From an uncultured Chlorobiota bacterium (GTDB lineage Bacteria; Bacteroidota; Ignavibacteria; UBA10030; UBA6906): a stretch of 64,000 nucleotides of DNA. The stretch is taken from the NCBI GenBank assembly GCA_900696645.1, contig CAADGV010000024.1, positions 128,912-192,911 on the forward strand, given 5' to 3'. Both the position numbers and the translations under genes were made by a program. The stretch's first letter is position 1. Each line of letters begins with the position of its first letter. Shown here piece after piece: positions 59,132-62,656 of this stretch. The notes under the pieces were generated by a model. That model made no database searches. It had not been told where the DNA came from and worked only from the letters and a program-made list of their open reading frames with translations.

Positions 59132-59264
59132 TTCAAGAATCTCTTTCGACGTCGTTGACAGACTCGTCCGTGACGTCGCATTGTAAGACCATGTCCGAGT
59201 AGGCCGCATCGTGCAGCTCAAAAAGCACAATGTGACTGAAAGGGCGGAGCGTGCCTGAGAGGAC

Positions 59265-59294
59265 AAGTCCCAAATCCCAATTGCCAAATTCCAA
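59265..59294. repeat. Left inverted repeat of IVP cassette 1
   Basis: Low-complexity CCAA-rich stretch. CCAAATTCCAA (59284-59294) is the exact reverse complement of TTGGAATTTGG at 59702-59712, and pairing continues outward without gaps: across 30 positions (59265-59294 with 59702-59731) 23 Watson-Crick and 2 G-U pairs can form. It lies 36 bases before the IVP gene. Confidence 0.8.
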
Positions 59295-59330
59295 GTACCA
59301 AGCAGCGACCGCGGAGCCTATTGACGAAAC

Positions 59331-59690
59331 ATGATGAACACAGACCGTCCATATGACCTTGAGGAGCGGACGTTCCTGTTTGCAAAGGAAGTCGCACTCT
59401 TCTGCAAGCGTTTGCCGAAGAATGTCGAGAACATAGAATACATCAAACAGGTCATACGATCATCAGGCTCAGTCGGTGCGAATTACATTGAGGCCAATGA
59501 ATCGTTGGGAGAAAAAGACTTTTCACTGAGGTTAAAGATCAGCCGTAAGGAAGCCAAAGAGTCGATGTACTGGTTACGACTCATTTGTGAGACAAACAAT
59601 ACCCAATTCGCCGGGTCCGGGACAGTTCTCGTGAATGAGGCGAATGAATTGCGGAAAATCCTTTCCACCATCATAAACAAAGCGAAATAG
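59331..59690 (+). CDS. Four-helix-bundle protein, 23S rRNA IVP/S23 family
   Basis: A 119-residue helical protein of the family first found inside intervening sequences of 23S rRNA genes. The family phrase is QVIRSSGSVGANYIEANES, followed by KISRKEAKESMYWL. These proteins form small helical bundles, often pentameric; avd of diversity-generating retroelements is related. The molecular role is unknown. It interrupts a polysaccharide operon between a NusG-like factor and a sugar dehydrogenase, and is bracketed by inverted repeats (59265-59294, 59702-59731). Confidence 0.92.
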   Translation: MMNTDRPYDLEERTFLFAKEVALFCKRLPKNVENIEYIKQVIRSSGSVGANYIEANESLGEKDFSLRLKISRKEAKESMYWLRLICETNNTQFAGSGTVLVNEANELRKILSTIINKAK

Positions 59691-59701
59691 GCACTTCATC
59701 A

Positions 59702-59731
59702 TTGGAATTTGGAGTTTGGACTTTGGAATTT
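59702..59731. repeat. Right inverted repeat of IVP cassette 1
   Basis: TTGGAATTTGG (59702-59712) and the following GTTTGGACTTTGGAATTT pair with the left arm at 59265-59294. The motif TTGGAATTT occurs twice in it. It begins 12 bases after the IVP stop and ends 12 bases before the ATG of the sugar dehydrogenase, leaving little room for a normal ribosome site there. Confidence 0.8.
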
Positions 59732-59742
59732 CACATAGAATT

Positions 59743-61044
59743 ATGAGTATCAAACAGGAGTTTCTCAAGAGAATTGACTCAAGAGATGCCCGGATCGGCA
59801 TCATCGGCCTCGGCTACGTCGGATTGCCGCTCGGACTCTGCTTCGCGGAGAAGAAGTTTCGCTGCGTCGGCTTTGATATCGACCGGAAAAAGACCGACGC
59901 ATTGTCGAAAGGCGAATCGTATATCAAACACATTCCTTCCGAACGCATCAGGCAGGCTGTCTGTTCAGGGATGTTCAGCGCGACAACAGACTTTTCGAAG
60001 ATTGCGGAGTGTGACGCTGTTCTGATTGCCGTACCGACACCGTTGAACAAGAATCGCGAGCCTGACATGTCGTACATCGTCAGTACGTGCGAGACGGTTA
60101 CACCGTATGTGCGTGCAGGTCAGTTGTTCGTGCTGGAGTCAACTACCTATCCCGGCACAACGGACGAGGTGGTCGTTCCGATTCTCGAATCAACCGGATT
60201 GAAATGCGATGTTGACTTCTTCGCGGCCTTTTCTCCCGAGCGTGAGGATCCGAACAACAAGGAATACCGGACCGAGACGATCCCGAAAGTCGTCGGTGCA
60301 ACATCACCTGAAGGACTGGCCGTTGCGGACAGGCTCTACTCACAGATCGTCGTGCGAACCGTTCCTGTTTCTTCAACGCGTGTTGCCGAGGCGACAAAAC
60401 TGATGGAGAACATCTTCCGCTCTGTAAACATCGCCCTCGTGAATGAGTTGAAAGTCGCCTTCATGAAAATGGGAATTGATGTGTGGGAAGTGATCGAAGC
60501 AGCGAAGACAAAACCGTTCGGCTACATGCCGTTCTATCCGGGTCCGGGACTCGGCGGCCACTGCATTCCTATCGATCCGTTCTATCTCACGTGGAAAGCA
60601 CGAGAGTACGGAGTTGCTACGCGGTTCATCGAGCTTGCAGGGGAGATCAATACTGCCATGCCGGACTTTGTTGTGCAACGAGTGATGGAAACACTCAATG
60701 ACCATGGCAAGGCACTTAAAGGTTCGAAGATCCTGATCCTGGGTCTTGCATATAAAGCCAACGTTGACGACGACCGCGAATCTCCTTCTTATCATCTGAT
60801 CGAGAAGTTGGAAGAGAAAGGGGCAACCGTGAGCTACAACGATCCGTTCGTTCCCGTTATTCGTCCCTCCCGTGAATGGTCGAAGTATGCCGGCCGCGAG
60901 TCGGTGGAAGTAAGCAACAACTACGATCTCATCCTCATCGCCACACCGCATGACGAATACAGGAAAATGGATTTCAGTAGCTTCTCCGCGCCGATTGTGG
61001 ATACGAGAAATATTGTGTCCGGCGGTAGAGCATACAAGGCTTAG
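59743..61044 (+). CDS. Nucleotide-sugar dehydrogenase (WbpA/TviB type)
   Basis: A 433-residue NAD-dependent dehydrogenase oxidising C6 of a UDP-sugar to a uronic acid. The Rossmann motif is GIIGLGYVGLPLG near the start, the family phrase FSPEREDPNN occurs in the middle, and the catalytic Cys lies in GLGGHCIPIDPFY. These features resemble UDP-GlcNAc 6-dehydrogenases (WbpA/TviB) more than UDP-glucose dehydrogenases; the exact sugar is inferred. ATG 59743 begins the conserved core; there is no clear ribosome site because the cassette arm ends just upstream. Confidence 0.92.
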   Translation: MSIKQEFLKRIDSRDARIGIIGLGYVGLPLGLCFAEKKFRCVGFDIDRKKTDALSKGESYIKHIPSERIRQAVCSGMFSATTDFSKIAECDAVLIAVPTPLNKNREPDMSYIVSTCETVTPYVRAGQLFVLESTTYPGTTDEVVVPILESTGLKCDVDFFAAFSPEREDPNNKEYRTETIPKVVGATSPEGLAVADRLYSQIVVRTVPVSSTRVAEATKLMENIFRSVNIALVNELKVAFMKMGIDVWEVIEAAKTKPFGYMPFYPGPGLGGHCIPIDPFYLTWKAREYGVATRFIELAGEINTAMPDFVVQRVMETLNDHGKALKGSKILILGLAYKANVDDDRESPSYHLIEKLEEKGATVSYNDPFVPVIRPSREWSKYAGRESVEVSNNYDLILIATPHDEYRKMDFSSFSAPIVDTRNIVSGGRAYKA

Positions 61045-61046
61045 CT

Positions 61047-61067
61047 GATTGTTGTTTGTTGATGGTT
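61047..61067. repeat. Left inverted repeat of IVP cassette 2
   Basis: GATTGTTG followed by TTTGTTGATGGTT is the reverse complement of the right arm at 61569-61600 at 20 of 21 positions, with one 7-base insertion in the right arm. It begins three bases after the dehydrogenase stop. Confidence 0.8.
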
Positions 61068-61122
61068 GATTGTTGACAGTCGATGGTGTATCATGTGAAG
61101 TCACAAACACGTGTGGTGCATC

Positions 61123-61545
61123 ATGAACGAACAACAGCCATCAGCGAAGGAACCCCTCAGGTCAGCGATTCACAAGTTGGAAGATCTCGAGTGTTACGTG
61201 AGGGCCAGGGCATTTCGAAAGCGTGTCTCCGAGACTTGTAAGCTCCTGCCGAAAGAAGAACAGTTTCGTTTGAGAGATCAACTGCTCAGATCGTCGAGAT
61301 CCGTTGCGGCCAATATTGCAGAAGGCTATGGTCGTCACCATCATCAGGAAAATCTCCAGTTCTGTCGTCAGGCCCGCGGTTCACTAACGGAGACAATCGA
61401 ACATTTGAATTGTGCACTTGACGAGAGATTTGTCGACGATGCACTGTACACTTTGCTGCGAGAGGAAAGCGACACATTGCTGAAGATCCTCAACGGCTAC
61501 ATCTCATACCTTCGAAAAGCAGCGGCAGCGGCAAAATCACGATAA
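61123..61545 (+). CDS. Second four-helix-bundle IVP/S23-family protein
   Basis: A 140-residue helical protein of the 23S rRNA IVP family, from a different subfamily than the one at 59331: the key phrase is LLRSSRSVAANIAEGYGRHH, then QFCRQARGSLTET. It stands in the same operon, also between inverted repeats (61047-61067 and 61569-61600) unlike those of the first. Start at ATG 61123; the GTG at 61111 adds four residues. Function unknown. Confidence 0.92.
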   Translation: MNEQQPSAKEPLRSAIHKLEDLECYVRARAFRKRVSETCKLLPKEEQFRLRDQLLRSSRSVAANIAEGYGRHHHQENLQFCRQARGSLTETIEHLNCALDERFVDDALYTLLREESDTLLKILNGYISYLRKAAAAAKSR

Positions 61546-61568
61546 TCCCATCGCAGCACAGCCAAGGC

Positions 61569-61600
61569 GTTGAACCATCAACTAACAACTATCAACAATC
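61569..61600. repeat. Right inverted repeat of IVP cassette 2
   Basis: Its reverse complement begins GATTGTTG, then a 7-base insertion, then TTAGTTGATGGTT, matching the left arm at 61047-61067. It ends exactly where the epimerase reading frame begins (TTG at 61601). Confidence 0.8.
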
Positions 61601-62611
61601 TTGCCTGAATACCTCGTCACCGGTTCCGCCGGCTTCATCGGCTACCACCTTGCTGAGCGGCTGCTCAATGACGGCGTGCGGGTTGTCGGGCTAGACAACA
61701 TGAATGCGTACTACGATGTCAGTCTGAAGGAGGCGCGGCTCGAACGGCTTCGACGCCACAAGGGATTCAAGTTTGAGAAACTCGACCTTGCAGACCGGAG
61801 CGGGATGGAACGGCTGTTCGCTGAACACACCTTCGATGTGGTTGTCAATCTGGCGGCGCAGGCGGGCGTCCGTTACTCGCTTACCAATCCGCATGCGTAC
61901 ATCGATTCGAACATTGTCGGGTTTTTGAATATCCTTGAAGGATGCAGGCACGCGAAGGTGAAGCATCTCGTCTTCGCATCCAGCAGCTCGGTGTACGGTG
62001 CCAACACCCAAATGCCCTTTGCCGTGTCGGACAATGTCGATCATCCAGTATCGTTGTACGCGGCAAGCAAAAAGTCAAACGAGTTGATGGCGCATTCGTA
62101 TGCACATTTGTACAAGCTTCCGTGTACAGGACTTCGTTTCTTTTCCGTGTACGGCCCGTGGGGGAGACCGGACATGGCGATGTTCTTGTTCACGAAGGCG
62201 ATCCTGGAGGGGAAGCCAATCGACGTGTACAACAACGGCGACCTGCAACGCGACTTCACCTACATTGACGATATTGTCGAGGGAGTTGCGCGTGTCGCAG
62301 CACGAATCCCGTCCGCAGACCCGGCATGGAACGGCGATGCTCCGAATCCCGCAACAAGCAAAGCGCCGTACCGTCTCTACAACATCGGCAATCATAATCC
62401 GGTACACCTGATGCACTTCATTGAACTGATCGAGAAGGCAGCAGGGCGGACGGCGGAAAAGCGATTTCTTCCGATGCAGCCCGGAGATGTGCCCGCAACA
62501 TTTGCCGATGTGGACGATCTTGTGCAGGATGTCGGCTTTGCGCCGGCCACACCGATTGAAAAAGGAGTGAAGAAATTTGTGGAGTGGTACAGGGAGTATT
62601 ATGGGTGTTGA
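61601..62611 (+). CDS. UDP-glucuronate 4-epimerase-like SDR enzyme
   Basis: A 336-residue extended short-chain dehydrogenase. NAD-binding [14 protein letters not shown], the YAASKKSNE active-site Tyr/Lys and the segments [19 protein letters not shown] and [12 protein letters not shown] are typical of UDP-glucuronate 4-epimerases (LpsL/GAE), which make UDP-galacturonate. The only possible start is TTG at 61601 with no ribosome site; an inverted repeat of the IVP cassette ends immediately before it. The core enzyme looks complete. Confidence 0.92.
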
Positions 62612-62625
62612 GGATGAGGATGAGA

Positions 62626-62637
62626 TTGATGGTTGAT
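62626..62637. repeat. Lone copy of the cassette-2 repeat core
   Basis: TTGATGGTTGAT is identical to bases 61059-61070 in the left arm of cassette 2 and follows the epimerase stop by 14 bases, in a low-complexity GGATGAGGATGAGATT setting. A small palindrome ATCGAAAATCGAT overlaps it. No IVP gene is attached. Confidence 0.6.
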
Positions 62638-62656
62638 CGAAAATCGATTTGGAGAA

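Follow-up and report, generated by a model that had tools for sequence, protein, structure and literature searches.

The closest described relatives of the locus analysed here are the intervening sequences (IVSs) of 23S rRNA. The IVS of Coxiella, which RNase III excises, contains an S23p open reading frame, heptameric GACAGAT repeats upstream of it and a terminal stem of 28 bp (PMC4990558); the S23p protein of X. campestris is a homopentameric toroid (PMC4990558). Heptameric units are also known from intergenic DNA, as GGGAATC in Xanthomonas, GGGGA(T/C)T in Nostoc, TAACTGA in Beggiatoaceae and the “globally existing” heptamers of the SPADE survey (PMC6344855, PMC4692102), in which intergenic heptamers were the most abundant such repeats and offered no clear clue to their function (PMC6344855). 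In Xanthomonas, GGGAATC units on the sense strand closely follow stop codons, those on the antisense strand closely precede start codons, and many of them form inverted pairs (PMC4692102). IVP/S23 genes are not mentioned under the searched terms in these heptamer-repeat papers (PMC6344855, PMC4692102), and searches of the open-access literature gave nothing relevant on IVP/S23 associated with repeats outside rRNA.

The window, i.e. the whole stretch of 64,000 nucleotides that was analysed, harbours two cassettes in which an IVP gene is enclosed by inverted heptamer arrays (Table 1). Cassette 2 exactly fills, with ca. 0.55 kb, the junction between ugd and the epimerase gene; its left array begins 1 nt behind the ugd stop codon and its right array is directly followed by the start codon of the epimerase gene. 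The left array is composed of the units TGATTGT, TGTTTGT, TGATGGT, TGATTGT, TGACAGT and CGA and reaches a period-7 score of 15.6, values of at least 12 being about absent in Markov shuffles of the 443 kb (ca. 10% of the own genome) on which array density was measured. The reverse complement of the right array is GATTGTTGATAGTTGTTAGTTGATGGTT. With 34, the arm score exceeds the 99.9th percentile of 5000 shuffled flank pairs (25) as well as the 99% null values of mismatched IVP flanks (30) and control ORFs (27.6), and the two-unit motif of the arms occurs six times in the 64 kb, compared to an expectation of 0.06, with all occurrences lying within the two arms. The sequence-only reading, which had attributed own arms to the IVP gene at 61123 in the form of inverted repeats at 61047-61067 and 61569-61600 with a 7-base insertion, was right about their existence and inverted orientation. 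However, its bounds were slightly displaced, the arms consist of 7-9-mers in tandem and are not simple inverted repeats, and the length difference taken for an insertion corresponds to one repeat unit of a period-7 array.

Table 1. Cassettes 1 and 2 and adjoining genes (positions in the window)
Feature	Position	Strand	Remarks
Left array, cassette 1	59264..59302	+	CAAGTCC/CAAATTC heptamers
IVP1 gene, IVP subfamily different from IVP2	59331..59690	+	PF05635 E 5e-15
Right array, cassette 1	59702..59731	-	CAAGTCC/CAAATTC-type heptamers, inverted
ugd, UDP-glucose/GDP-mannose dehydrogenase, upstream of cassette 2	59743..61044	+	stop codon abuts left array
Left array, cassette 2	61046..61083	+	five and a half tandem heptamers
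IVP2 gene, S23/23S_rRNA_IVP four-helix-bundle protein, 140 aa	61123..61545	+	PF05635 E 5e-29
Right array, cassette 2	61573..61600	-	four heptamers of the left-array type, inverted
NAD-dependent sugar epimerase, downstream of cassette 2	61601..62611	+	TTG start abuts right array

The terminal inverted repeats enclose IVP2 as the sole gene, which matches PF05635 alone and, with 101 bits against a curated cut-off of 33.8, thereby belongs to the family; an alternative GTG start is present at 61111. No transposase or recombinase is encoded between the arrays, and a reverse transcriptase is absent among the immediate neighbours of IVP2. These neighbours are ugd and the epimerase gene, the locus not being inside a 23S rRNA gene, and a conserved 23S rRNA motif was not found in the IVP loci examined. 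Rfam yielded one sub-threshold match elsewhere and otherwise nothing. The epimerase stop codon is immediately followed by a degenerate stretch (62612-62640), GATTGATGGTTGATCG, which looks like a solitary arm of the IVP2 type and is a member of an inverted-repeat pair. The AlphaFold model of IVP2 (pLDDT 91) consists of four helices and superimposes onto the S23 pentamer chain 2gsc with a TM-score of 0.95 and onto 2rld with 0.89 (by target length); it also matches the Avd fold (4dwl, 8ub7). IVP genes show dN/dS values of 0.04–0.09 and are under strong purifying selection.

Cassette 1, whose gene lies 1.3 kb upstream of IVP2, has the same layout and unrelated heptamers of the CAAATTC type, so that the earlier statement of a difference in both protein and arms holds for subfamily and units alike. 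Just downstream of a NusG-like gene (59241-59268) an ops-like stretch, AAAGGGCGGAGCGTGCCTGAGAGG, was noticed which resembles the ops element GGCGGTAGCGTG used by NusG paralogues; it is conserved in G001, a genome of the same genus, and comparable stretches are present at G002:C296 and at G016:C48. The genome of the window (G000) provides seven PF05635 matches, of which six are ordinary IVPs, all with inverted arms ca. 400–500 nt apart and all with different units, and the seventh, a variant protein of greater length, has no arms. The longer IVP-like protein L007 (G000:C13:11941-12153), armless and equipped with an extra C-terminal part, is possibly a domesticated form.

IVP-less arrays and mini-hairpins are also found at other gene junctions of this genome (G000:C30:103699-103764 and 160472-160551; C30:101142; C42:64791), several of them in the class of a resident IVP, such as the 9-mer class of L001 or the class of IVP1. 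At G000:C24:222912-223038 the contig end lies within ca. 18 perfect AAATCAG copies preceded by GGTTGAGGTTAAGG units; arrays of this kind probably break assemblies. Repeats scattered independently of IVP genes had been named in advance as the finding that would speak against a link between both. IVP-less repeats do exist, but as solo arrays or mini-hairpins, some of which match the class of a resident IVP, and they therefore fit derivatives and do not refute the link.

IVPs are present in 47 of 60 related genomes, many of the compared genomes being draft assemblies. For 100 IVP loci of the window's order the median arm score is 28, compared to 17 for mismatched flanks and likewise 17 for control ORFs (n=86), and a significant array was detected in 76 left and 63 right flanks. 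The best array period is mostly 7 (or its multiple 14), followed by 8 and 9, and is equal in both arms in 88 of the 96 cases with an array on each side. The arms comprise a median of 5.0 and 4.3 units, the detection threshold favouring arrays of at least three, and the sense strand of the left arm is poor in C (8% vs 23%). A hold-out set of 27 Gammaproteobacteria gave a median arm score of 34 vs 16 and exclusively the periods 7, 14 and 9. Roughly a quarter to a third of the IVPs lack detectable arms, and L324 has arms in an unexpected orientation. In L162, L171 and L197 the arms are doubled; the left end is itself a hairpin of an array and an inverted array in front of the IVP gene, which results in three arrays. 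The general cassette architecture proposed by the sequence-only reading is thus confirmed, and with inverted 7-9-mer arrays at most of the 100 same-order IVPs and in Gammaproteobacteria it extends further than that reading had suggested.

The unit of the arms follows the subfamily of the protein. Between loci, the similarity of the arms is correlated with the identity of the IVPs (Mantel-type r = 0.31), a value reached in none of 2000 permutations, which did not rise above 0.086 and correct incompletely for the kinship of related, non-independent sequences; on the opposite strand r is -0.01. For those IVP pairs with at least 60% identity whose outer flanks have no gene in common, the arms match in 66% compared to a background of 22%. 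In one subfamily AGC recurs three times at 7-nt spacing in 57% of the members vs 6% in other subfamilies (p 7e-14), although this group spans Chloroflexi, Acidobacteria, Methylomirabilota, Planctomycetes, Cyanobacteria and Bacteroidetes. In the IVP2 subfamily, of which the other genomes of the window's family contain no close member, the motif GTTRA is found in 31% vs 3% (p 1e-4). Many of its members carry GGTTAATT/GGTGAGT-type units, of which the GTTGATT of IVP2 is a 7-nt version. The co-variation of end repeats with IVP clusters, which had been suggested as a check, is accordingly found, also across phyla.

The cassettes occupy tight gene junctions and turn over there. In 83 two-array cassettes, with genes taken from simple ORF calls, the left array begins at the upstream stop codon (median distance 0.5 nt, n=60), the next start codon follows the right array at a median distance of 12 nt, and the downstream gene is co-directional in 75. 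Named junctions are cas6-cas4 and nrdB-nrdA on cyanobacterial plasmids and, as read from the sequence, accB-accC. In G001 the flanks of the IVP2 locus are 88% identical, and the alignment breaks off exactly where ugd reaches its stop codon and is taken up again 10 nt inside the epimerase gene; the junction contains another IVP with only 31% identity and GTTTAGG arms. The IVP1 junction of G001 is devoid of an IVP and contains a short inverted array pair (ca. 67 nt), a mini-hairpin of a class of G001 itself. At the site of an IVP2-subfamily cassette in the genus g66, stop and start codon are 2–3 nt apart in a sister species (G200), separated by 55–56 nt spacers in G091 and G251, and separated by a different IVP with other arms in G082, G177 and G206, while G100 and G155 retain remnants with mixed arms. 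In Flavobacterium G393 a 0.56-kb cassette takes the place of the short groES-groEL spacer (54–88 nt in the closest congeners); it is present in a few and lacking in most of 61 congeners, and at other sites Flavobacterium genomes have matches to the arms alone. The order groES-[IVP cassette]-groEL was also noted at L214, L217 and L254 in Flavobacterium and Chryseobacterium, and where congeners lack the cassette, the spacer often carries a lone heptad array that belongs to a different class. Presence/absence polymorphism at orthologous sites is hence documented in G001, among the sister species of g66 and in Flavobacterium. Of the two things that the sequence-only reading wanted to see, empty sites were found in two other genera, but a target-site duplication was visible at neither of the two empty/filled junctions (g66 and groES-groEL), where the spacers are diverged or replaced. 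Simple insertion with target duplication, which was considered as well, was not seen at these junctions.

We regard the arrangement of a heptad array, an IVP gene and an inverted heptad array as, very probably, a mobile cassette with protein-matched ends, and 61046-61600 is probably one copy of it, situated at a tight junction of a sugar/EPS operon. Both mobility and binding are what we infer from comparison; the missing catalytic domain and the lack of a visible target-site duplication argue against this assignment. A competing explanation treats the cassette as an intervening sequence at the RNA level: the transcribed arms would pair, RNase III would cut the stem and the IVP piece would be released from the mRNA of the operon, in the manner of 23S rRNA IVSs, and pairing would be what keeps the arms conserved. 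The co-directionality of most cassettes in operons is compatible with it, as is the composition of the Coxiella IVS, and as the stem of the latter is RNase III-processed (PMC4990558), the arms may have a role as RNA. However, the arm-arm mismatches show no bias towards G·U wobbles (125 vs 142, p 0.33), register shuffles reveal no in-register complementarity beyond the common unit (39/81), and the RNA of the IVP2 cassette is not unusually stable (fold z -1.26), with only about 10 terminal bases pairing arm to arm. An RNA stem as selected feature was rejected on these three results. Because both the G·U bias and the in-register pairing are lacking, the arms look like inverted binding-site arrays and not like a conserved RNA stem. 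The RNA explanation also leaves the protein-specific unit and the 7-nt period unaccounted for and is, in our view, unlikely.

Still less likely is a stationary regulatory module in which the IVP ring would bind the heptads in mRNA, as TRAP binds spaced triplets, and control translation of the IVP and the next gene, with spreading by ordinary operon transfer. The start of the heptads at stop codons and their end near start codons, the purifying selection and the single-strand bias of the units would suit such a control element. In the mRNA, however, the right arm is the complement of the unit, so that an RNA-binding ring would see one arm only; the presence of the cassettes is erratic even in groES-groEL, and different IVP classes replace one another at a single junction. 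Chance, i.e. arrays as neutral slippage products of intergenic DNA in which IVP genes are merely tolerated, can appeal to the abundance of intergenic heptamer repeats (PMC6344855) and to arrays without IVP genes, but is already refuted by the co-variation tests, unless a larger sample fails, and has next to no probability in view of protein-specific units across phyla, matched inverted arms that exceed the shuffled, mismatched and control-ORF nulls, and control ORFs without arms.

For the mobile cassette with protein-matched ends we propose the following scenario. The cassette would be carried on the transcription of the host operon. The homopentameric IVP ring, a toroid in a solved relative, might recognize one unit per subunit, on a single strand and in its own ends, which would require about five units per arm. 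That the arms are bound by their own IVP is quite likely; one ring per arm is a more tentative assumption. A difficulty is that 8- and 9-nt units must fit the same ring. Due to the inversion of the arms both ends would look alike to the protein, as with transposon ends. Host DNA functions might then copy the bound ends into new stop/start junctions or join them there; these functions are invoked for the transfer because the cassette encodes neither a transposase nor a reverse transcriptase. Mobility at the DNA level appears somewhat more plausible than at the RNA level. IVP-less arrays and mini-hairpins would be non-autonomous derivatives or scars.

Heptamers as matched ends of IVP/S23 cassettes would plausibly be the first explanation offered for intergenic 7-letter repeats, whose function has so far been called unknown, and the link to IVPs makes the question of their function directly testable. 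It also suggests a candidate role for a family of proteins whose structures have been solved but whose function is unknown, and it connects the intervening sequences of 23S rRNA with the Avd proteins of diversity-generating retroelements (DGRs) and with intergenic repeats. A heptad code that is readable and subfamily-specific would also make such a protein interesting as a sequence-specific binder.

Among the known systems, Avd of DGRs shares its fold with IVP2. In contrast to IVP2, which has no reverse transcriptase among its immediate neighbours, Avd is partnered with one and acts on RNA/cDNA. IS/MITE and RAYT/REP systems likewise have ends common to an autonomous, gene-bearing form and short non-autonomous forms, whereas the IVP cassette is devoid of a transposase domain, has 7-mer arrays instead of one fixed terminal repeat and shows no target duplication. 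It is conceivable, although we would not count on it, that the cassette represents a categorically distinct mobile element, whose sole gene would encode a ring-shaped, non-catalytic DNA/RNA-binding protein reading ca. five tandem heptads per inverted end; the element would rely on host functions to spread through tight operon junctions, and its solitary ends would form a large share of the bacterial intergenic heptamer repeats. The latter share the 7-nt period with the IVP arms but are published without an account of their origin, whereas the arrays described here form the ends of IVP cassettes. The Xanthomonas GGGAATC layout corresponds to the cassette geometry minus the gene; at L356 a frameshifted ORF for an IVP related to XCC0516 is flanked on either side by GGGAATC arrays and occupies the accB-accC junction. 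For the heptamer dimer of Beggiatoa and three cyanobacterial ones, the IVP loci gave two incidental matches only. L230, an IVP locus of Phycisphaerae, contains the Beggiatoaceae heptamer as TAACTGATAACTGA, and the Beggiatoaceae repeats may be solo IVP ends too. The 23S rRNA IVSs of Coxiella and Leptospira correspond to the cassettes in the S23 protein family, the inverted terminal repeats and a similar length; they differ from the cassettes, which are placed at junctions of protein-coding operons and have heptad arrays on both sides; in the cassettes base-by-base pairing of the arms is not conserved, and each IVP subfamily has units of its own. The IVP cassette is best explained as the protein-operon counterpart of the 23S rRNA intervening sequences.
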